Part shown: piece by piece, positions 2,689 to 63,690 of the stretch
Layout: the number at the start of each line of letters is the position of its first letter
How positions within the stretch are numbered: position 1 is the stretch's first letter
From: Hymenobacter swuensis DY53
GTDB lineage: Bacteria; Bacteroidota; Bacteroidia; Cytophagales; Hymenobacteraceae
Reading direction: 5' to 3'
Assembly: GCF_000576555.1 (NCBI RefSeq)
Contig: NZ_CP007145.1
Span: 4,840,242 to 4,904,241 of the forward strand
Length of the DNA stretch: 64,000 nucleotides
Translations under genes and position numbers: made by a program
The notes under the pieces: generated by a model
Seen by the model: the letters and a program-made list of their open reading frames with translations, nothing else
What the model was told of the DNA's origin: nothing
The model's database searches: none

Positions 2689-4641
2689 ATGGGCAAGAAA
2701 CACTTCTCCGGCGATGCGCCCGGCCGCCGTGGCCGTACCACCGGCTCCGGCCGTCCTGCTGACAGCCGTAACAATGACAGCCGTAACAATGACAGCCGCG
2801 GCAACGACAACCGTTCTTCGGATAACCGAGGCAACGAGGGATTCCGCAAGTTTATACAGCCCGGTCAGGAGCGCACGGAGCGCACGGGCGGCAACCCGCG
2901 CTTCGGCCAGAATGGGGGCGGCTCAGATGAGCGTCGGGGCAACTCCGACCGCTCTTCGTTCGGGCGTTCCAGCGGCGGCAGCTTCAGTGGGCCGCGCAAG
3001 TTCGGCAACTCGCCGGGCGGTAGCTTTGGCGGTCCGAAGAAATTCGGGACTTCCTCGGGTAGCGGCTCTTTCAACCGGGGCGGCCGGGACTTCCGGGGCG
3101 GTGACGATACGCGCCGTAGCAGCGGCTTTGGCGACAACCGCGAGGAGCGCCCGGTGCGGGAATTTGAGCCCAAGAAAACATGGCAGGGCCAACCATACCG
3201 CAGCCAGGAAGGACAGTCGGCAGTGCCGCGTGGCTTGCCGGGTGAGCGGAACCGTAAGTTCATCAAGCAGAACCCCAACCCTCAGGACGAACCCCAGGAA
3301 TTCCGTCCCCGGCAGGAAGAAGCACGCCCGATGCGCGAAGCTGCTCCCGGCGAGCGGGAAATCCGGGCGGCGCGTCCGTTCGATTTCCGTGGCCGGCCTT
3401 CGGACCTCGACAACGAGCAGTCGGAACAGGCGGCGCGGCCAGAGCGCATCGAGCGTCCTTCCCGGTCGGAGTGGTCAGAACGTACGGAGCGGCCGGCCCG
3501 CTTTGAGGCTGATGACCGCCGGGAACGGCCGGTTCGCCGGGCCGATGACAGCGGCGAGCGGCGCGACTTTGGTAGCCGGAAGCCCCAGGGCTTTGGAGCC
3601 GGAGCTGCCGGGGAAAAACGCACAAGCCGCCCCGGCGCTTTCGGCGACAAGCGGGAGGGTCGTGCTTTTGATCAGGACCGCCGCGGGGCCTTTGGCGAGA
3701 AGCGTAGCTTCGGTAGCGACAGGCGCGAAGGTCGTTCCTCAGAGGAGCGCCCAAAGCGGGCCCATGATGAGTACGCGGGCCGGGGTGCCCAGACGCCCAC
3801 CAGCAACCAGGCCGGCAAGCGCAAGTATGGCGAGGTAGCAGGGCAGGCTCCTGACTACAAAAACCTGAAACACTACGAGGACGATAAAACCCGGGGCAAT
3901 AAACGTCGGCGTGAGGAAGATGACACGACGGGCGAGGAAGTTCGCCTGAACCGCTACATCGCCAACGCCGGTATCTGCTCCCGCCGTGATGCCGACGCCC
4001 TGATTGCCGCCGGCGAAATCAAAGTAAACGGGGAAGTAGTAACGGAAATGGGCTACAAAGTGCAGCCCTCCGACACGGTGCAGTACGGCAAGACAAACCT
4101 CAACCGCGAGAAGCAGGTGTACGTGCTGCTCAACAAGCCCAAGGACTTCCTCACGACGACTGAGGACCCCGAGGGCCGCCGGACGGTGATGGAACTGGTA
4201 AAAGGGGCATCAAAGGAGCGTCTGTTCCCGGTGGGCCGCCTCGACCGGAATACCACGGGCCTGCTGCTGTTCACCAACGACGGGGAAGTGGCGCAGAAAC
4301 TCTCGCACCCCTCGCACCGCAACAAGAAAATCTACCAGGTGGAGCTGGATAAGCCGCTAACGGAGGAACACCTGAAGCAGATTGCGGACGGGGTGATGCT
4401 GGAAGACGGCAAAGCCGACGTGGACGATGTAGCGGTGGTAGCGGGTAACCCGCACTTTGTAGGTGTGGAAATCCACATTGGCCGTAACCGCATCGTGCGC
4501 CGCATTTTCGAGCACTTGGGCTATGATGTAATTACCCTGGACAGGGTGCAGTACGCCGGTCTGACTAAGAAGGACCTGCCGCGCGGCAAATGGCGCTTCC
4601 TTTCGGAGAAAGAAGTTATCCGCCTGAAGTATTTCATGTAA
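2689..4641 (+). CDS. rluB: 23S rRNA pseudouridine synthase (RluB/RsuA family) with long disordered RG-rich N-terminus
   Basis: 650 residues, of which only about 235 are the enzyme. Residues about 417-475 are an S4 RNA-binding domain (VRLNRYIANAGICSRRDAD). The pseudouridine synthase domain follows, with the motif GRLDRNTTGLL (catalytic Asp519) and the C-terminal RNRIVRRIFEHLGYDV element. The first about 415 residues are low-complexity, rich in Arg, Gly, Ser, Asp and Glu, with repeated FGDKREGRAF-like and RPxR units and a 15-bp tandem DNA repeat at 2759-2805 coding DSRNN units. Such an extension probably binds RNA or promotes condensation (inference). It isomerises uridine in 23S rRNA. The whole reading frame is open, so the extension is genuine and not a fused ORF artefact. 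Confidence 0.9.
   Translation: MGKKHFSGDAPGRRGRTTGSGRPADSRNNDSRNNDSRGNDNRSSDNRGNEGFRKFIQPGQERTERTGGNPRFGQNGGGSDERRGNSDRSSFGRSSGGSFSGPRKFGNSPGGSFGGPKKFGTSSGSGSFNRGGRDFRGGDDTRRSSGFGDNREERPVREFEPKKTWQGQPYRSQEGQSAVPRGLPGERNRKFIKQNPNPQDEPQEFRPRQEEARPMREAAPGEREIRAARPFDFRGRPSDLDNEQSEQAARPERIERPSRSEWSERTERPARFEADDRRERPVRRADDSGERRDFGSRKPQGFGAGAAGEKRTSRPGAFGDKREGRAFDQDRRGAFGEKRSFGSDRREGRSSEERPKRAHDEYAGRGAQTPTSNQAGKRKYGEVAGQAPDYKNLKHYEDDKTRGNKRRREEDDTTGEEVRLNRYIANAGICSRRDADALIAAGEIKVNGEVVTEMGYKVQPSDTVQYGKTNLNREKQVYVLLNKPKDFLTTTEDPEGRRTVMELVKGASKERLFPVGRLDRNTTGLLLFTNDGEVAQKLSHPSHRNKKIYQVELDKPLTEEHLKQIADGVMLEDGKADVDDVAVVAGNPHFVGVEIHIGRNRIVRRIFEHLGYDVITLDRVQYAGLTKKDLPRGKWRFLSEKEVIRLKYFM
2759..2805 (+). repeat. 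15-bp tandem repeat inside the RluB extension
   Basis: The unit GACAGCCGTAACAAT occurs twice exactly and then continues in degenerate form (GACAGCCGCGGCAAC). It is in frame and encodes DSRNN / DSRGN, so copy-number change would keep the frame. Confidence 0.7.
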
Positions 4642-4673: not shown

Positions 4674-4833
4674 GATGGTGAAGTTGTGAAATAGGGAAGT
4701 GGTGAGTGGATGGGTTATTCTGACCTGCCACGCCCAGCCTCTCCTATTCCACGGCTTCACCATTTTTGCGCTGTTGAATGCCGAAAACCCGCGCGTTCCG
4801 GCTGCACTACTTCACCATTTACCACTTCACCAC
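4674..4833. repeat. Intergenic inverted repeat with GTGAA-word arms (copy A)
   Basis: The left arm (4674-4709) is a run of GGTGAAGTTGTGAAAT-like words. The right arm (4807-4833) reads CTACTTCACCATTTACC and is its imperfect reverse complement; a second partial right arm lies at 4751-4763. It fills nearly all of the rluB-coaX gap. Confidence 0.6.
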
Positions 4834-10219: not shown

Positions 10220-10254
10220 AAAGGGCCGTACCTTAGAGGTGCGGCCCTTTTTTG
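10220..10254 (+). terminator. Intrinsic terminator after ppiD
   Basis: Stem AAAGGGCCGTACC / GGTGCGGCCCTTT followed by six T. It is strongly supported. Confidence 0.85.
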
Positions 10255-10264
10255 ATTTAGCGAA

Positions 10265-10371
10265 TCGGTGACTTGGCGATTTAGTGAATTGAATGAGCCT
10301 GAGATGCAGGCTGCGCAAGTGTTACAGGCTCAACGGTCAGCTCACTAAATCACTAGGTCACTGAATCACCG
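10265..10371. repeat. Intergenic inverted repeat (copy B)
   Basis: The left arm has CGGTGACTTGGCGATTTAGTG. The right arm, reversed, reads CGGTGATTCAGTGACCTAGTG and repeats the word AGTGATTT. The loop contains GCCTGAGATGCAGGC. Confidence 0.6.
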
Positions 10372-10395: not shown

Positions 10396-12228
10396 ATGAA
10401 AAAGTCGTTGCGTTTGGGAGTAGGGAAGGCAGGGCTGACCGTGTTGCTATTGGCAGCCGGGCCGGTGGTAGCCCAGGTTCAGGAAGACAGCCAGGTGCAG
10501 CTAGCTCGTGAGTATGAGCGCAAGGGCGAGCATGAGAAGGCCGCCTTTCTGTTCGGCCGACTGCGCAACGATGAGCAGACGGCCCCCAACATCCTGCCCG
10601 ATTACCTGGCTGCCCTGCAAGGACTCAAGCGCCCCAAAGATGCCGAGAAGCTGGTGAAGCGTGCCCAAAAGCAACGGCCCCAGGAAGCCAAGCTGGGCGT
10701 CACGCTGGGCCAGGTGTACGCCCAGGCTCCCGATGAGCTAGCCGCCCAAAAGCAGTGGGAGCGGGTGCTGGCCCAGCTGCCCCCGGAACAGGTAGTAGCC
10801 GTAGCCACCGAGTTTCAGAAGCTGGCGTTACCTGACTGGGCTATCCGTACCTATCTGCGCGGCCGGGAGCTGGCCCGTTCCGAAACCGAGTTCGGCCCCC
10901 AGCTCATCCAGCTCTACACCCAGCAGGGCCAGACGGATAAGCTGATGGCCGAAACTCTGCGTCTGGTGCAGGACGATGAGCGGCAACTGCCCTTCGTGCG
11001 CAACATGCTTCAAAACAGCCTCCAGGAAGATAAGGACTTTGCCACGCTGGAAAAAGAGCTGCTGAGTCTGGTGCAGAAAAACCCCGAGCTGCCTGTGTAC
11101 AGTGAGTTGCTGCTGTGGCTGCAGGTGCAGCGCCGCGACTTTACCGGCGCGCTGGTGCAGGCCAAAGCCCTCGACCGGCGCGGCCGTACCGAAGGCCAGC
11201 GCGTACTGGAAGTAGCCGAAATTGCCCGCCGCAACAAAGACTACGAAAGCGCAATCCAAGGCTACGATTACGTGGTGCGCGAGTACCGCAACCAACCGTA
11301 CTACGCCCTGGCCCGCCAGCGCCTCGTGCAGACCCGCGAGGACCAGGTACGCAACACGTACCCCGTCAGCCCCGCCCAGCTGCGGAGCCTGCTGCAGGAG
11401 TATGAGCAGGTGCTTACTGACCTGGGCCGCACGCCCGATACGGCCCCGGTGCTGCGTAGCATGGCGGCCTTGCGCGCCTTCCAGCTCGATGAGAAGGAAC
11501 CCGCCATGAAGCTGCTCAACGAGGTAATCACCATGCCCCGCGCCAGCCTCGATGTGGTGGATCAGGCAAAGATTGATCTGGCCGATATCTACCTGCTGCG
11601 CGCCGAGCCTTGGGAAGCTACCCTGTTGTACTCGCAGGTAGAGAAGTCGCACAAGGATACGCCGCTGGGTTATGATGCCAAGCTGCGCAACGCCCGCCTC
11701 AGCTACTTTGCCGGCGACTTCAAGCTGGCCCAGTCGCATCTGGATATTCTCAAGCAGGCCACCAGCCGAGAAATTGCCAACGATGCCATGCAGCTCAGCC
11801 TGCTCATCACCGACAACACGGCCATGGACACGGCCGGCGTGGCCCTGCGCGACTACGCCGTGGTGGAGCAGCAGGTATTCCAGAACAAGTTGCCGGAAGC
11901 CCTGCGCGGCCTCGATGCTCTGCTGGCCAAGTATCCCGGCCACGCGCTGCAGGACGACGCTTGGTACCTGAAGGCCCAGCTTCAGCGCCGCACCGGTGAC
12001 TATCCCGGTGCCTTAGCCACCCTGGAGCGCATTACGGCTAACCCCAAATATGATGTGCTCAGCGACGACGCACTGTTCTTGGCCGCTCTCATTCAGGAGG
12101 AAAACGTGCAGGACCGCGAGAAAGCCCAGCAGCTCTACAACCAGGTTATCACCAAGTACCCCGGCAGCATCTACGTGGCCGAAGCCCGCAAACGGTTCCG
12201 CAAAATGCGCGGCGATGCGGTCAACTAG
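10396..12228 (+). CDS. Secreted tetratricopeptide-repeat protein
   Basis: 610 residues. An N-terminal signal peptide (GLTVLLLAAGPVVAQ, cleavage about 27) precedes a continuous array of TPR helices, including YERKGEHEKAAFLFGRL near the start, IARRNKDYESAIQGYDYVV in the middle, and the final QLYNQVITKYPGSIYVAEARKRFRK, a YbgF/BamD-like repeat. It is probably a periplasmic scaffold that binds partner proteins; the partner is not visible. It is flanked by intergenic inverted repeats on both sides and by recJ after a 257-nt gap, so it seems to be a single-gene unit. Confidence 0.8.
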   Translation: MKKSLRLGVGKAGLTVLLLAAGPVVAQVQEDSQVQLAREYERKGEHEKAAFLFGRLRNDEQTAPNILPDYLAALQGLKRPKDAEKLVKRAQKQRPQEAKLGVTLGQVYAQAPDELAAQKQWERVLAQLPPEQVVAVATEFQKLALPDWAIRTYLRGRELARSETEFGPQLIQLYTQQGQTDKLMAETLRLVQDDERQLPFVRNMLQNSLQEDKDFATLEKELLSLVQKNPELPVYSELLLWLQVQRRDFTGALVQAKALDRRGRTEGQRVLEVAEIARRNKDYESAIQGYDYVVREYRNQPYYALARQRLVQTREDQVRNTYPVSPAQLRSLLQEYEQVLTDLGRTPDTAPVLRSMAALRAFQLDEKEPAMKLLNEVITMPRASLDVVDQAKIDLADIYLLRAEPWEATLLYSQVEKSHKDTPLGYDAKLRNARLSYFAGDFKLAQSHLDILKQATSREIANDAMQLSLLITDNTAMDTAGVALRDYAVVEQQVFQNKLPEALRGLDALLAKYPGHALQDDAWYLKAQLQRRTGDYPGALATLERITANPKYDVLSDDALFLAALIQEENVQDREKAQQLYNQVITKYPGSIYVAEARKRFRKMRGDAVN

Positions 12229-12231
12229 AAT

Positions 12232-12432
12232 CACAGATTTTCGCTGATTAACTGTGGTTTCGCTGATTCAGGCCGGCAAAACGTGTACCCCGGAGCTGGG
12301 CTCTGGCTTGCGCTTAGGAGTAAGACCCTTCTGACGCGGGCCGGAGCCCAGCTCCGGGGTACACGTTTTGCCGGCCTCGAACACTACCCCCTCAATCTGC
12401 GGCATCTGCACCCGAATCTGCGAAAATCTGTG
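12232..12432. repeat. Nested inverted-repeat element with a perfect 34-bp inner stem (copy H)
   Basis: The inner arms are 12270-12303 and 12344-12377, exact reverse complements of 34 bp starting AGGCCGGCAAAACGTG. The loop is 40 nt. Outer arms at 12232-12249 and 12415-12432 match 17 of 18 (CACAGATTTTCGCTGATT). It occupies the gap between the TPR gene stop (12228) and the recJ promoter. Confidence 0.85.
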
Positions 12433-12444
12433 CTTCTGTTTTTG

Positions 12445-21641: not shown

Positions 21642-23183
21642 TTACGCCGACAGCACGGCCACGGCGGCCTGAATACGCTCGGCGGTTTCCTGCGGCCCCA
21701 GAATGCGCATAATGTGCATCAGGTCGGGGCCAGCAGCGTGGCCGGTTACGGCTACGCGCAGAGCCTGTAGCACCTGTCCGATTTTCAGGCTTTGGGCTTC
21801 GAGCACCTGCGTGAGCAACGCTTTGATACCGTCGGCTGAAGCATCGGCAGCGGTGGGTAGCTGCCCGGCAAAGGCTGCCAGGGCCGCCGATACCTGCGGG
21901 TTCCACTTCTTGCTGATAACTTGCTCATCATAACTGCTGGGGCGCTGGAAGAACAACTGCGCTTCCTGGGCCAAGTCGGCGGGGAAGGTGGCGCGTTCCT
22001 TTACCAGGGCCGCAATCTGCTCGGCTTGGTCAGCGGGCACCTCGATTCCCTGCTGGCTTAGCTCCTCGGTGAGGTACTGGGCCAACTCGGCGTCAGGTTT
22101 GGCACGCAGATACTGCTCGTTGTACCACCGCACTTTGTTCTGGTCGAAGCGGGCCGGCGACTTGCTCACGCGCTCAATCGAGAAGTTCTCAATCAGCTCA
22201 TCCATCGTGAACAGCTCCTGCTGGGTGCCGGGGTTCCAGCCTAGGAAGGCCAGGAAGTTGATGAACGCCTCGGGCAGATAGCCCGATTCACGGTAACCGC
22301 TGCTCACGGTCGGCTCACCGGTTTCGGCGTCTTTGCCATGAAACTCCAACGGAAATACCGGGAAGCCCAGCTTGTCACCGTCGCGTTTCGAGAGCTTGCC
22401 GGTGCCGTCGGGCTTGAGCAGCAGGGGCAGGTGGGCAAACTGCGGCATGGTGCTTTCCCAGCCCAGGTAACGGTATAGCAGTACGTGTAGCGGAGCCGAG
22501 GGCAGCCACTCTTCACCCCGGATAACGTGGGTGATTTCCATCAGGTGGTCATCCACAATGTTGGCTAGGTGGTAGGTCGGCATGCCATCCGACTTCATCA
22601 GTACCTTATCATCTATGCTGGAAGAATGCACCACTACCCACCCGCGAATCAGGTCGTTGAAGCGGATTTCCTCCTTGCGTGGCACCTTCAGGCGGATGAC
22701 GTAGGGCGTACCGCTTTCCAGTAGTTGCGTTACCTCCTCGGCCGGCAGGGTGAGGGAGTTGCGCATTTGGGCGCGGGTGATGCTATTATACTGCGGATTA
22801 GGCACCTTGGCAGCCGTGAGGCGGGCCCGCATGGCGTCCAGGTCCTCGGGCGTATCGAAGGCGTAGTAGGCGTGGCCGGCCTGAATCAGCTGGTCGGCGT
22901 ACTGGCGGTACATGGGCTTCCGCTCGCTCTGGCGGTAGGGGGCGTGGGGGCCGCCCTGCTCAATTCCTTCGTCAATTTCAATGCCGCACCAGCGCAGGGA
23001 GTCCATAATGTACTGCTCCGCACCGGGCACGAAACGGTTCTGGTCGGTGTCCTCAATGCGCAGCAGCATCTTGCCGCCCAGCTTGCGGGCCAGCAGGTAG
23101 TTATACAGCGCAGTGCGCACGCCGCCGATGTGCAGCGGCCCCGTGGGGCTGGGCGCAAAACGCACCCGTACTTCTCTTTCCAT
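21642..23183 (-). CDS. gltX: Glutamyl-tRNA synthetase
   Basis: 513 residues. Class I synthetase that charges tRNA-Glu. The HIGH-type motif is in SPTGPLHIGGVRTALYN, and the KMSKS-type loop is KLSKRDGDKLGF. The central GIEQGGPHAPYRQSER region and the C-terminal anticodon-binding domain are complete. The ATG complementary to 23181-23183 fits the family start (MEREVRVRFAPSPTG). It is intact and typical in size. Confidence 0.97.
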   Translation of the reverse strand: MEREVRVRFAPSPTGPLHIGGVRTALYNYLLARKLGGKMLLRIEDTDQNRFVPGAEQYIMDSLRWCGIEIDEGIEQGGPHAPYRQSERKPMYRQYADQLIQAGHAYYAFDTPEDLDAMRARLTAAKVPNPQYNSITRAQMRNSLTLPAEEVTQLLESGTPYVIRLKVPRKEEIRFNDLIRGWVVVHSSSIDDKVLMKSDGMPTYHLANIVDDHLMEITHVIRGEEWLPSAPLHVLLYRYLGWESTMPQFAHLPLLLKPDGTGKLSKRDGDKLGFPVFPLEFHGKDAETGEPTVSSGYRESGYLPEAFINFLAFLGWNPGTQQELFTMDELIENFSIERVSKSPARFDQNKVRWYNEQYLRAKPDAELAQYLTEELSQQGIEVPADQAEQIAALVKERATFPADLAQEAQLFFQRPSSYDEQVISKKWNPQVSAALAAFAGQLPTAADASADGIKALLTQVLEAQSLKIGQVLQALRVAVTGHAAGPDLMHIMRILGPQETAERIQAAVAVLSA

Positions 23184-23239
23184 AAGTCAGTCAGTTCGCA
23201 ACGCTTTCGGGGAAAGAAAGCGCGCCGCAAAGGTACGAA

Positions 23240-23341
23240 AGGTGAGATGGTGAAATGGTGAAATTGTGAGTTTGGCGTTCTACCGGGCCTGATGGCACAA
23301 GCAGAACGTCAAACTTACCATGTCACTATTTCACCACCTTA
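23240..23341. repeat. Intergenic inverted repeat (copy C)
   Basis: The left arm carries three GGTGAAAT-like words and then GTTTGGCGTTCT. The right arm reversed gives GTGGTGAAATAGTGACATGG and GTTTGACGTTCT. The loop contains CCTGATGGCACAA, shared with copy D. It ends 4 nt before the next gene's stop codon. Confidence 0.75.
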
Positions 23342-23345
23342 CTTA

Positions 23346-23957
23346 TTACTCCACTACCAAGCCGTATTTACCCAGTAGGCCGGGCAGGCTCTGGAGGGCG
23401 AAACGGGCCTGTTTCAGCTCATTCTGCTCGGGGTCGAGTACCATGCCCTGAGCGGTGCGAAAGTCAACTCCCGGCAAACGGGTTTGGCTGAAGATGGCCC
23501 CGCGCAGCTGGCATTCCTGGAATACGGCGTTGGTCAGGTCGGCGCGGGTGAAATCAACCTCCTGTAAGGAGCAGCTTACAAAGCGCGTGTTGGGCATGAC
23601 TTTGCCCCAGAACGAGGCATAATCTAGCTGGCACCGGTCAAAATGCACATCGAACAGCATGTCCCGGCAGGAGGTGAACTGCAGCCCCAGGAGCTTACAG
23701 CTCTCGAAGGCCACATTCTGCAAACTGGTATTGGCCAGAGAGGCCCCGGCCAGGTTGCAGTTCTCAAACAGGCACTCGCTAAACCGCCGGCCCGCTAAGT
23801 CTGCCTGGCTTAAGTCGAAACCGATAAAATGGAACTGCTCAAACTCCCTCTGCCCCACTAGGGCGGGTGGCAGCACACGTAGCACCACGTTTCCGGGCGG
23901 GAAGTACGTAGGCTTTGCCAACGCCTTGGCGGGTTTGCGGGAAACCGGTCGGCGCAT
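23346..23957 (-). CDS. Pentapeptide-repeat protein
   Basis: 203 residues. After a basic N-terminus (MRRPVSRKPAKALAK) comes a run of A(D/N)LxX-type pentapeptides such as LSQADLAGRRFSECLFENCNL, AGASLANTSLQNVAF, and FTRADLTNAVFQECQLRGAIF, which form a right-handed quadrilateral helix. Qnr/MfpA relatives mimic DNA and protect gyrase, and others are structural. The loop and length differ from Qnr, so no resistance role is claimed. Its ATG (23955-23957) immediately follows the stop of the membrane protein upstream, so the two are one transcript. Confidence 0.85.
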   Translation of the reverse strand: MRRPVSRKPAKALAKPTYFPPGNVVLRVLPPALVGQREFEQFHFIGFDLSQADLAGRRFSECLFENCNLAGASLANTSLQNVAFESCKLLGLQFTSCRDMLFDVHFDRCQLDYASFWGKVMPNTRFVSCSLQEVDFTRADLTNAVFQECQLRGAIFSQTRLPGVDFRTAQGMVLDPEQNELKQARFALQSLPGLLGKYGLVVE

Positions 23958-24152
23958 TTAGTGGCGGTTTTTGAAGCTGAGCCAGAGTATCAGGCCCAAC
24001 GCAGTAATGCCGCCCTTGATGGCCCACGCTACCGTTGGGCCCCAGTTGTAGATCCAATCCAGCAGCGGAAATCGAAAGTTAGCGGGCAGCAGCAACGGGG
24101 CGGCAATAGCAATCAGCCCAGCGAAAAACAGAAAAATACCCAGCTCGCGCAT
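23958..24152 (-). CDS. Two-helix small membrane protein
   Basis: 64 residues from the ATG complementary to 24150-24152. Helices are about 4-24 (LGIFLFFAGLIAIAAPLLL) and about 40-59 (TVAWAIKGGITALGLILWL). It resembles small DUF2905-type membrane proteins, though this is only a family guess. An in-frame TTG upstream would cross the inverted repeat and is rejected. It abuts the pentapeptide gene with no gap, and it is separated from ridA by inverted-repeat copy D. Confidence 0.7.
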   Translation of the reverse strand: MRELGIFLFFAGLIAIAAPLLLPANFRFPLLDWIYNWGPTVAWAIKGGITALGLILWLSFKNRH

Positions 24153-24287
24153 AGCAGTGAATTTGTGAAGTAGTGAAATAGTGGGTTTGACGTGCAGAGA
24201 ACCTGACGGCACAATCTGCACAATCCGCGCAAGCGGCGCAAACCGAACGTCAAACTCCCCCTTTCATAAACTCACAAATTCACTGCT
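24153..24287. repeat. Intergenic inverted repeat (copy D)
   Basis: The first 16 bp of the left arm (AGCAGTGAATTTGTGA) are an exact reverse complement of the end of the right arm. The inner arms share GTTTGACGT. The loop carries CCTGACGGCACAA. It fills exactly the gap between the ridA stop and the next ATG. Confidence 0.8.
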
Positions 24288-24669
24288 ACTGCACTGCAAT
24301 GCAGGAAATCTCTACCTGCACGTCTTTCGGCAGGCGGCTTACTTCCACAGTTTCGCGGGCAGGGGCGTAGTCGGCATCGAAGTAGCTGCCGTAGATTTCG
24401 TTGATGAGGCCGAAGTTGCCTAGGTCCTTCACGAAGATGCTACACTTCACCACATGGCGCAGGGTGAGACCCACGGCTTCCAGCACGGCTTGCAGGTTGC
24501 GCATTACTTGGTGAGTTTCCTGGGCTACGTCGCCGTCGCCCACCAACTGGCCATTGGCATCCAGCGGAATCTGGCCCGATACGTACACGGTGCCACCGGC
24601 CTGAATGGCTTGGCTATACGGGCCGATGGGAGCAGGGGCCTGGGGCGAAAAAACAACAGTATGGGCCAT
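24286..24669 (-). CDS. ridA: RidA/YjgF-family deaminase
   Basis: 127 residues from the ATG complementary to 24667-24669 (MAHTVVFSPQAPAPIGPYSQ). RidA hydrolyses reactive enamine/imine intermediates made by PLP enzymes, protecting the cell. The family elements are PIGPYSQAIQAGGTVYVSGQIPLD, the central KCSIFVKDLGNFGLINEIYG, and PARETVEVSRLPKDVQVEISC containing the conserved arginine. It lies in the - strand run between glmS and a small membrane gene. The full family length is present. Confidence 0.93.
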   Translation of the reverse strand: MAHTVVFSPQAPAPIGPYSQAIQAGGTVYVSGQIPLDANGQLVGDGDVAQETHQVMRNLQAVLEAVGLTLRHVVKCSIFVKDLGNFGLINEIYGSYFDADYAPARETVEVSRLPKDVQVEISCIAVQ

Positions 24670-52691: not shown

Positions 52692-54074
52692 GTGCACTTC
52701 TCCATTCAAAACATCCTCTTCCTGCTGGTGGCGGTAGCGGGCTTCGGCCTGTTTGCCTGGCAAGCGCGGAAGATCCGGGCCAATATCCTCGTCGGGCGCG
52801 ACCGGGACATGAGCGGCCACGTCAATGAGCGCCTCTGGAAGACGCTGCTGGTGGCCTTCGGGCAGCAGAAGATGTTCAAGCGCCTCACGCCGGCCTTTTT
52901 GCACCTGATTGTATACGTCGGCTTCATCGTCATCAACATCGAAGTCATTGAAATCATGGTGGACGGCCTATTCGGTACCCACCGGTTTCTGCAGTTCCTA
53001 GGCCCGCTGTACTCGGCCCTGACGGGCACCAACGAGGTGCTGGGCGCGCTGGTGGTGCTGGCCGTGGTGGTGTTCTGGTGGCGCCGCAACGTAGGCGTAG
53101 TACGCCGTTTCACCGGCCCCGAGCTACGGGCCTGGCCCAAACTCGACGCCAACGTGATTCTCTACGTGGAGGTGGTACTGATGGTGGCCCTGTTCACGAT
53201 GAACGCCGCCGACCTGAAGTTGCATCAGCTGGAAGGCAAGGACCTGCCCGGCGCGTTTCCGGTCAGCAGCCTGCTGACGGGCCTGTTCCCCGATAACCTC
53301 ACGGCCCTGGCCGTGCTGGAGCGTGTGGGCTGGTGGGCGCACATTGTAGGCATTCTGCTGTTCCTGAACTACTTGCCTAGCAGTAAGCACTTCCACATCA
53401 TCATGGCCTTCCCGAACGTGTTCTACTCCCGGCTGGTGCCGCAGGGGCAGTTCTCGAACGTGGAAAGCATCACCCACGAGGTGAAAGCCATGATGGACCC
53501 CAGCTACCAGGTGCCCGCCCCGGCCACCAATCCCGATGGCTCGGCTGCCGCGCCCACGCCCTTCGGCGCTAAAGACGTGGACGACCTGGCCTGGACCAAC
53601 CTGCTCAGTGCCTACTCCTGCACCGAGTGCGGCCGCTGCACCTCGGTGTGCCCGGCCAACCTCACCGGTAAGCTCCTCTCGCCCCGCAAAATCATCATGG
53701 ATACCCGGGATAGGGTGGAGGAGAAGTACAACTCACCCCTGATTTTCCACCCCAGCCTGTACGGCCCGGAGGCCAAGCACAACCCCCAGGAGCAGCTCGA
53801 CAAGGAAAACCACACCCTGCTGCGCGGCTACGTAACGCCCGAGGAGTTGTGGGCCTGCACCACCTGCAACGCCTGCGTGGAAGCCTGCCCGGTGAACATC
53901 AACCCGCTGGAAAGCATCGTGGAAATGCGCCGCTTCCTGGTGCTGGAAGAGTCGGCCGCGCCTAACTCCCTGAACGTGATGTTCAGCAACATCGAAAACA
54001 ACGGCGCGCCGTGGGCCTTCTCGCCCTCCGACCGGTTCAACTGGGCCGACGACCTGTTCGTGGCGGAGAAGTAG
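52692..54074 (+). CDS. Membrane iron-sulfur oxidoreductase subunit (HdrD/GlpC-like N-terminal part)
   Basis: 460 residues from GTG 52692. The first about 240 residues hold five to six helices (NILFLLVAVAGFGLFAWQA, FLHLIVYVGFIVINIEVI, VLGALVVLAVVVFWW, VILYVEVVLMVALF, HIVGILLFLNYL), a heme-free b-type-like membrane part. Two 4Fe-4S motifs follow: CTECGRCTSVCP and CTTCNACVEACP. The CCG domains normally fused after these are in the next gene. Electron flow is from membrane quinone or cytosolic thiol pools; the exact reaction is unknown. The gene pair is conserved across Bacteroidota. Confidence 0.88.
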   Translation: MHFSIQNILFLLVAVAGFGLFAWQARKIRANILVGRDRDMSGHVNERLWKTLLVAFGQQKMFKRLTPAFLHLIVYVGFIVINIEVIEIMVDGLFGTHRFLQFLGPLYSALTGTNEVLGALVVLAVVVFWWRRNVGVVRRFTGPELRAWPKLDANVILYVEVVLMVALFTMNAADLKLHQLEGKDLPGAFPVSSLLTGLFPDNLTALAVLERVGWWAHIVGILLFLNYLPSSKHFHIIMAFPNVFYSRLVPQGQFSNVESITHEVKAMMDPSYQVPAPATNPDGSAAAPTPFGAKDVDDLAWTNLLSAYSCTECGRCTSVCPANLTGKLLSPRKIIMDTRDRVEEKYNSPLIFHPSLYGPEAKHNPQEQLDKENHTLLRGYVTPEELWACTTCNACVEACPVNINPLESIVEMRRFLVLEESAAPNSLNVMFSNIENNGAPWAFSPSDRFNWADDLFVAEK

Positions 54075-54075
54075 C

Positions 54076-54197
54076 GAGTATTGGGTAGTGAGTATTGAGT
54101 AATTAGACACTCGTGTGCCGCTCTCTCTGCCTCACCCAACTTATTGCTGCTTCTTTTTTCCCTTGTCTCAATACTCAATACCGACTACTCACTACTA
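54076..54197. repeat. Intergenic inverted repeat between the iron-sulfur genes (copy E)
   Basis: Left arm 54076-54109 has AGTATTGGGTAGTGAGTATTG. The right arm 54163-54197 reversed has GTAGTGAGTAGTCGGTATTG. It fills exactly the gap between the stop (54074) and the next ATG (54200). Confidence 0.75.
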
Positions 54198-58409: not shown

Positions 58410-58441
58410 TTGCAAATGGCAGCGAGAAAGTGCTATCTTTG
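58410..58441 (+). promoter_or_regulatory. rRNA promoter P1
   Basis: TTG (58410-58412), 21 nt, TATCTTTG (58434-58441), then GCACCCCGCTTC. An A-run precedes the -33 element. Confidence 0.8.
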
Positions 58442-58506
58442 CACCCCGCTTCAGAAGGAGGCGCTTTCCACGAGCTAGCAGCGAAAAACTTTTTTCGGTT
58501 GCACTC

Positions 58507-58538
58507 TTGGAAAAAGGCAGAAAAGCTTGTTACCTTTG
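58507..58538 (+). promoter_or_regulatory. rRNA promoter P2
   Basis: TTG (58507-58509), 21 nt, TACCTTTG (58531-58538), then GCAGCCCGG. AAAAACTTTTTTCGG lies just upstream like an UP element. Confidence 0.85.
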
Positions 58539-58618
58539 CAGCCCGGTTTCGACTGAGAAAATGGGCACTGGGAATCGGAAACGAAGAAAAGGCTAAAAAC
58601 TTTTTTTCGTTCGGGTTC

Positions 58619-58648
58619 TTGGAAAAAGCAAAAAGCTGCTTACCTTTG
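58619..58648 (+). promoter_or_regulatory. rRNA promoter P3
   Basis: TTG (58619-58621), 19 nt, TACCTTTG (58641-58648), then GCACTCCGCTTC. AAAAACTTTTTTTCG precedes it. Confidence 0.85.
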
Positions 58649-58732
58649 CACTCCGCTTCAACCGGAAGCTGGCTTACTGAAAAACGAATCGCTTTCGAAA
58701 TTTACTTCGGAAAATTTTTTTTCAGAAAAGGC

Positions 58733-58762
58733 TTGCAGGATGAAAAAAGCTGCTTACCTTTG
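58733..58762 (+). promoter_or_regulatory. rRNA promoter P4
   Basis: TTG (58733-58735), 19 nt, TACCTTTG (58755-58762), then GCAACCCGCTTC. AAAATTTTTTTTCAG precedes it. Confidence 0.85.
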
Positions 58763-58845
58763 CAACCCGCTTCGATCGGAAGGGGCTTACAACACGCAGA
58801 CTACGCCGCTTTCGAGCGGCACACGGTAGGGCCCAACGGGGCGCT

Positions 58846-59035: not shown

Positions 59036-63690
<4,655 letters not shown>

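Follow-up and report, generated by a model that had tools for sequence, protein, structure and literature searches.

The window, the whole 64,000-nucleotide stretch analysed, corresponds to C3 4840242-4904241 of the 5.25 Mb genome of Hymenobacter swuensis DY53 (G000; 4 contigs). Positions given below are those of the window, and numbers of six or seven digits are genome positions. A simple hexamer-based gene finder called a series of minus-strand genes around the two elements studied here: gltX, encoding glutamyl-tRNA synthetase (21642..23183), a pentapeptide-repeat protein gene (23346..23957), a gene for a 64-aa protein (23958..24152), for whose longer reading frame a Pfam scan returned no family, and ridA (Ribonuc_L-PSP; 24286..24669, start placed at ATG by eye). 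The promoter-like TACCTTTG (23228..23235, minus strand) lies between copy C and gltX and matches TAnnTTTG, a -7 promoter motif known from Bacteroidetes. Relatives found with the pentapeptide-repeat protein were Hymenobacter species; of those with a name, H. perfusus and H. rigui came nearest, at 89% identity. Over 184 kb of aligned stretches, H. swuensis and H. perfusus (G061) were 89% identical.

Copy C occupies 23242..23342, with the stop side of the pentapeptide-repeat gene at one edge and, opposite, TACCTTTG between it and gltX. It consists of 40-nt arms around a 21-nt apex: the left arm (23242..23281) reads GTGAGAT GGTGAAAT GGTGAAAT TGTGAG followed by TTTGGCGTTCT, the right arm spans 23303..23342, and the apex contains CCTGATGGCACAA (23288..23300, plus strand). 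In copy D (24152..24288), arms at 24152-24193 and 24247-24288 are 81% complementary and enclose a 53-nt apex with CCTGACGGCACAA (24202..24214, plus strand). The elements and their arms were assigned no strand. Copy D fills its gap completely, the ridA stop codon (24286-24288, minus strand) lying within its outer stem and the ATG of the 64-aa protein gene (24152-24150) adjoining its other edge. The original prediction had described long hairpins at these places, with D exactly between ridA and the next ATG, and with word arms, CCTGAYGGCACAA in each apex and a core of GTTTGRCGT; all of this was found as described.

Folding confirmed that C and D are real hairpins. Folded as DNA, the plus strand reached -28.3 kcal/mol for copy C (shuffle mean -10.6, z -7.4) and -34.7 kcal/mol for copy D (shuffle mean -14.3, z -8.7); the minus strands gave z -5.9 (C) and -8.7 (D), and 0/200 shuffles reached any of the four energies. 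Chance hairpins in low-complexity gaps are thereby refuted as an explanation. Single words like GTGAAAT are, as is generally known, short and common. Against chance stand these fold scores, E values down to 1e-23 with the covariance model described below, and stem scores of at least 20 in 18 of 167 gaps of a 250 kb portion of the genome, a level reached in none of 5 shuffles per gap.

One detail of the original prediction failed. CCTGAYGGCACAA had been proposed as the mark of the family, and GTTTGRCGT followed by CCTGAYGGCACAA within 5-30 bases occurs genome-wide only in C and D; with two sites, this exact core is therefore not family-defining. The family mark is instead the combination of word arms with a GTTTGAYGTTC/GAACRTCAAAC core. 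From outside to inside, an element is built of tandem octamers NGTGARRT, then GTGAGTTTGAYGTTC, the apex, and the mirror image of both. By eye, the apex consists of NGCGCANNT units in most other members inspected, and the word lists vary from locus to locus. BLAST with copy D gave 42 genome matches at E <= 10, and most of the 22 loci inspected showed the same build by eye.

A covariance model built from 12 members, including copy C and excluding copy D, gave 118 hits at E <= 1 in the H. swuensis genome, merging to at least 61 loci with 150 of 2795 candidates scored. This number is a lower bound, since only that share of candidates was scored and two members in the window were missed; the weakest of the 61 loci may be false, as the threshold was E <= 1. 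The two missed members lie at 10265..10364, 69 bp past a stop codon and directly after a GC-hairpin with a T-run (~10220-10253), and at 4675..4763, a weak match (E 0.001) 34 bp past the stop of a gene ending at 4641; neither was assigned a strand. Applied to 457 kb of H. swuensis stretches, the model found 3 loci at E <= 0.01. Among the Hymenobacter genomes sampled, 49/61 had a match at E <= 0.01 and 12 had none, the number of matches per genome ranging from 0 to at least 72 with both strands counted. Order-wide, 8/118 genomes matched at E <= 1e-4, 6 of them in the same genus and 2, both weak, in other genera. The search of the complete genome and its relatives for further copies thus bore out the claim that C and D belong to one dispersed family. 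An Rfam scan of window positions 23000-24500 found no family above its gathering score, the match to mir-556 reaching 32.3 bits (E 0.00096) against a cut-off of 84.

We then compared the two arms over 101 members, 61 from H. swuensis and 40 from genomes G030, G059, G008 and G022, the latter favouring good stems because they were chosen as best-scoring. A core-motif filter passed 77/101 and dropped 24. The distance between core starts was 38 in 39/77, 29, 47 or 56 in 30 and another value in 8, so that apex length varies in 9-bp steps. Over the 77 members, arm pairing was higher within the same element than across elements for every word counted outward from the core: 0.865 vs 0.744 for word 1, 0.782 vs 0.653 for word 2, 0.703 vs 0.565 for word 3 and 0.394 vs 0.328 for word 4. 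In the 39 members with 38-nt spacing, 89.7% of cells were paired, a percentage that leans high because the model with which most of them were detected gives credit for pairing. Double changes occurred in 30/39 pairs, amounting to 151 double-changed cells against 46.7 in shuffles (0/500 reached 151), and fell to 26-45 when partners were slid by 1-3 columns. A separate count gave 147 against 51.5, the largest of 500 shuffles being 66. These results confirm the earlier observation that the arms keep pairing while their words vary. The letters are mirrored across the two arms of members, as template switching (quasipalindrome formation) leads one to expect.

Most members stand directly behind gene ends. 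Called genes contained 0/61 H. swuensis members; 41 lay in codirectional, 18 in convergent and 2 in divergent gaps, the background pairs being 164/30/30. Relative to the upstream stop, 32/41 codirectional members had an edge in the range -20..+5 bp (median 1 bp), 10/41 being equally near the next start, and in 13/18 convergent members both edges lay at most 20 bp from stops. A hairpin-plus-T terminator was present in 1/18 convergent gaps with an element versus 23/50 without (P 0.0016), and in 1/40 versus 26/233 codirectional gaps (P 0.15, not significant), where gaps counted as being without an element may include members weaker than the 61. The family element itself lacks a U-tract, and a GC-rich hairpin with a U-tract was found in 2/60 element-bearing gaps; by eye, a terminator adjoins the element at H. 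swuensis 3672021 and at window position 10265. The element therefore tends to occupy the terminator slot, not always alone. TAnnTTTG stood behind 4/18 codirectional members having at least 30 bp before the next start, so a promoter directly after the element, as at copy C, is not the rule. Two relatives' loci (L176 and L158) had suggested by eye that the palindrome spreads into convergent coding ends. This idea was rejected, as shared terminal bases averaged 1.72 in 18 gaps with the element and 1.55 in 60 without.

Strong covariation and placement at gene 3′ ends would both be expected if structure were under selection, that is, if the hairpin were required, whether in RNA or in DNA, with substitutions compensated singly. 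Selection on RNA alone predicts that sense-strand G.U pairs are tolerated. In codirectional H. swuensis members with a stem score of at least 14, sense-strand mismatches comprised 46 G.U vs 57 A.C (P 0.32); an RNA wobble signature was accordingly rejected, and the lack of a G.U excess speaks against the RNA form. Mirrored changes without wobble would also be expected from selection on DNA structure.

To see what relatives hold in place of C and D, we compared 18 relatives' loci; L104-L108, without matching neighbours, were left out, giving 13 relatives with the same gene order. Gap C held a model member in 4 of them (H. perfusus, H. rigui, H. aerophilus and H. actinosclerus), and gap D likewise in 4 (H. 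perfusus, H. rigui, H. metallilatus and H. aerophilus). Whether the same element sits at the same place in relatives, on which the original prediction had made a mobile or recombining family depend, was thus answered both ways: a member is kept in 4/13 at each gap, and 9/13 gave no model hit at each. By eye, gap C of H. psychrophilus, H. lapidiphilus, CCM 8763 and H. rubripertinctus carries another palindrome, of TGTCATTCC type, flanked in the first three by remains of GTGA words. It holds a lone octamer arm in H. guriensis, is short with possible remnants in ISL-91, is short and without the element in H. mucosus and BT18, and has other sequence in H. metallilatus (all by eye). In gap D of H. 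perfusus (L092, ~3680-3870) the element appeared by eye to be part-duplicated, with two cores in tandem.

These gaps bear on the possibility that the family is a MITE- or REPIN-like non-autonomous element mobilised by a transposase in trans, whose word arms would be terminal inverted repeats and whose copies would drift. Such an element would account for the relatives' gaps without a model hit, for one core at at least 61 loci and in most sampled genomes of the genus, and for copy numbers that range so widely between genomes. Apex spacing and core letters also differ by genome among the best-scoring members: spacing was 47/56 in 8/8 of G059 and 38 in 9/9 of G008 and 5/5 of G022, and the core letters were ATG/ATG in 15/18 of G030. 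Because these features are partly genome-specific, a degree of spread or conversion inside genomes is likely; for a single core to stand at dozens of loci, either spread or an old common origin is required. Other observations weigh against a mobile family. The H. swuensis genome had 0 matches to the Y1/RAYT transposase (PF01797), the control being positive in 5/14, and Y1 genes were not associated with element abundance over 61 genomes, being present in 15/23 rich (at least 30 hits) and 28/38 poor ones (P 0.57); mobilisation by Y1/RAYT was therefore rejected. The best identity among 666 pairs of 37 H. swuensis members was 82%, and the best within any of five genomes was 94% (G030). Conserved terminal inverted repeats, as in a MITE, were not seen: cross-element pairing falls outward from word 1 to word 4, and by eye the copies differ in their outer words. 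Members kept between species at some loci likewise weigh against movement. We consider a mobile element unlikely.

The comparison of arms between species bears on how pairing is kept. The fairest test covered 7 loci and took arms of 24 nt without gaps, their anchors being placed by hand; D of H. perfusus (two cores), D of H. rigui (left core lost), 3902025 and 3911332 were left out, and 3664114 and 3682027 were compared in H. swuensis and H. perfusus only. If one arm were copied from the other, the two arms of an element should resemble each other more than the same arm does across species. Overall identity was 0.773 within the same element (23 elements) vs 0.751 for the same arm across species (60 comparisons), and 0.721 vs 0.736 in the H. 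swuensis-H. perfusus subset. By locus, within-element identity was the higher at 485841 (0.86 vs 0.76), 476328 (0.85 vs 0.66), 3672021 (0.86 vs 0.80) and the copy C locus (0.83 vs 0.76), even at the copy D locus (0.71 vs 0.70), and the lower at 3664114 (0.62 vs 0.88) and 3682027 (0.40 vs 0.62). Stem-defined gapped arms, which are chosen by pairing, gave 0.93 vs 0.87 at 8 pairs, and 0.89 vs 0.86 when restricted to the five loci of the family.

Arms were 100% alike where the sister species differed in H. perfusus at 485841 and 3672021 and in H. rigui at 476328. At 485841 the 23-nt apex of H. perfusus matched that of H. metallilatus at 22/23 positions when inverted and at 11/23 in direct orientation, the one locus at which an inverted spacer was seen between orthologues. 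The earlier claim that arms are maintained by copying is thus favoured by four of seven loci and by the apex inversion, and not by the locus that is even or the two where the comparison is reversed. Across 30 orthologous gaps with palindromes of whatever type, we counted 92 single breaking changes and 22 restoring doubles; a rough independence estimate for the same gaps is 180 singles and 6 doubles. Perfect stems made of different letters in H. swuensis and H. perfusus occurred at 3861587, 3760615 and 3752929, loci picked for their stems, of which the first is a related word palindrome outside the family and the other two are ordinary convergent U-tract terminators. At the latter (C3:3760615 and 3752929) the terminators have outer stems lengthened into palindromes, perfect in each of the two species yet unlike in sequence. 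In our reading of the whole pattern, arms are re-mirrored in episodes and decay afterwards, and selection may play a part.

For single compensation under selection, the comparison between species cuts both ways. The 30 gaps show more doubles and fewer singles than the independence estimate, with singles still 4x doubles, and in the ungapped test the two arms of an element are, taken over all loci, not clearly more alike; both suit that explanation. Against it, at some loci species differ by entire words in the two arms (H. rigui vs H. swuensis at 476328), and the apex is inverted at 485841. Selection on structure as the whole explanation appears improbable to us, a little more so than a mobile element.

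The reading we favour, with a probability of about one half, is that the genus-wide family of C and D, non-coding palindromes of the terminator slot, has been shaped by episodic re-copying of arms through template switching, together with a measure of selection. While the DNA is replicated, the nascent strand would occasionally switch template within the hairpin, making one arm a copy of its partner (quasipalindrome correction). Such an event would reset mismatches, move word changes into both arms together and could flip the apex; between events the arms would decay, and slippage on the 8-bp and 9-bp units may gain or lose words. Arm copying at the DNA level would explain the mirrored words, the perfect stems of different letters in sister species and the apex inversion. 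The hairpin itself may act as a two-way 3′-end element, either a terminator or an mRNA end protector, and so hold its slot after the stop codon, a function suggested by placement and terminator exclusion. Quasipalindrome correction and template-switch hairpins were reportedly treated by van Noort in 2003.

The same slots also hold palindromes of other kinds. In 250 kb of H. swuensis, a stem score of at least 20 was reached in 12/27 convergent, 6/113 codirectional and 0/27 divergent gaps, and several of these palindromes belong by eye to other word families. The convergent gap 3664831 holds six different palindromes in six species, with 21-90 paired positions: terminator-like in H. swuensis and H. 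mucosus, with word-like arms in H. perfusus, H. rigui and H. rubripertinctus, and long and imperfect (72/90 paired) in H. metallilatus. As a raw value, no two species have more than 9 local alignment points in common between these arms, the top pairs being H. swuensis-H. mucosus and H. metallilatus-H. mucosus. Gap 3678007 carries word palindromes of AATTAAAAATT or GAATTATGAAT type depending on the species (by eye). A broader view, which we hold tentatively and regard as possible rather than probable, is that the post-stop slot, chiefly in convergent gaps, is a nursery of palindromes in which many word families arise, re-mirror and replace each other and terminators. Template switching fed by tandem words would drive this turnover, with the C/D family as one product and no transposon involved.

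Further repeats were noticed in the course of this work. At 54070-54196 a palindrome of other words (AGTAGTG AGTATTG AG...) fills a stop-to-ATG gap, and BLAST finds AGTAGTG/AGTATTG words in inverted pairs elsewhere, e.g. at 1044920-1045040, 829624-829706 and 2056311-2056408. A nested palindrome at 12226-12437, directly past a TAG stop, has outer words AATCACAGATTTTCGCTGATT and 43-nt inner arms (AGGCCGGCAAAACGTGTACCCCGGAGC...) that are 93% complementary. At G000:C3:3333451-3333633, GTGA word arms flank a different core, TGTCATCCTGAGCGGAGCGAAGGA...TCCTTCGCTCCGCTCAGGATGACA; word arms and cores are therefore combinable. Four direct repeats 97-114 bp apart at 58424-58772 contain AAAAGCTGCTTACCTTTGCA (TAnnTTTG, promoter-like) and lie upstream of a stretch at 59354 that resembles 16S rRNA by eye.

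If the favoured reading is true, the family is a natural record of arm-to-arm copying in bacteria, at dozens of loci per genome in the richer species. These loci, present in the majority of the genus genomes sampled, are easily re-sequenced. They would make compensation versus copying as the keeper of perfect stems directly testable. A further implication would be that a terminator can give way entirely to an unrelated-looking palindrome, and that 7-9-mer intergenic words in other phyla may trace one mutational process.

The nearest published look-alike we found is the set of octanucleotide-repeat pairs of Geobacter metallireducens, reported in 2009 as putative global regulator sites of classes 1-3 and possible IHF/HU sites (PMC2700814). 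The available text of that account describes, as in the Hymenobacter family, multicopy pairs of tandem octa- or heptanucleotides on opposite strands with variable spacing. The words differ (GTTGCTYN, MTYCTGA), and stop-codon placement, arm co-evolution and terminator exclusion are not among the features reported in that text (PMC2700814). By analogy, the Hymenobacter elements could be binding-site arrays in inverted pairs for a nucleoid or regulatory protein, to which their anatomy of tandem 7-8-mers would be suited. We think this very improbable, since the words turn over between near species, the elements follow stop codons rather than starts, and other species hold different palindromes in the same slot.

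Template switching is described as creating and repairing stems (PMC8794818) and as causing arm homogenisation and spacer inversion (PMC8604942), and the Hymenobacter elements may share these outcomes: one spacer is inverted, and at some loci perfect stems or closely matching arms suggest homogenisation and repair. Those papers, in the parts available, concern a mutational mechanism in RNA genes and yeast coding DNA, and a dispersed bacterial word-arm family does not feature there (PMC8794818, PMC8604942). REP/REPIN and CGTC-tagged palindromes are, like the Hymenobacter family, dispersed and extragenic, and CGTC repeats, which Bacteroidetes also carry, seem to have no transposase dedicated to them, as far as these reports show (PMC3733652, PMC3116915). 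REPs are described there as 20-40 bp long with an unpaired tag, whereas Hymenobacter arms have ~30-60 nt of variable words. REP/REPIN elements go with a RAYT, which the H. swuensis genome lacks.

Two systems known from Bacteroidetes share parts of this anatomy. A MITE of Porphyromonas gingivalis likewise has tandem and inverted repeats; as far as its available description goes, a minisatellite lies inside the MITE, unlike the palindromic word arms at stop codons in Hymenobacter (PMC4596501). TAACTGA heptamers are also short tandem intergenic words and occur in five Bacteroidetes, but in the text available they are one fixed word in direct repeats, mostly just upstream of starts in the main genome studied (PMC4679880).

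Intrinsic (Rho-independent) terminators, finally, share the post-stop hairpin, and rarely accompany the Hymenobacter element in convergent gaps. Compared with them, this element has no U-tract, a much longer outer stem of degenerate words and a larger apex. No description of the Hymenobacter family was found in the literature searched; what appears to be new here is the occurrence of word-armed palindromes in the slot that terminators otherwise fill.
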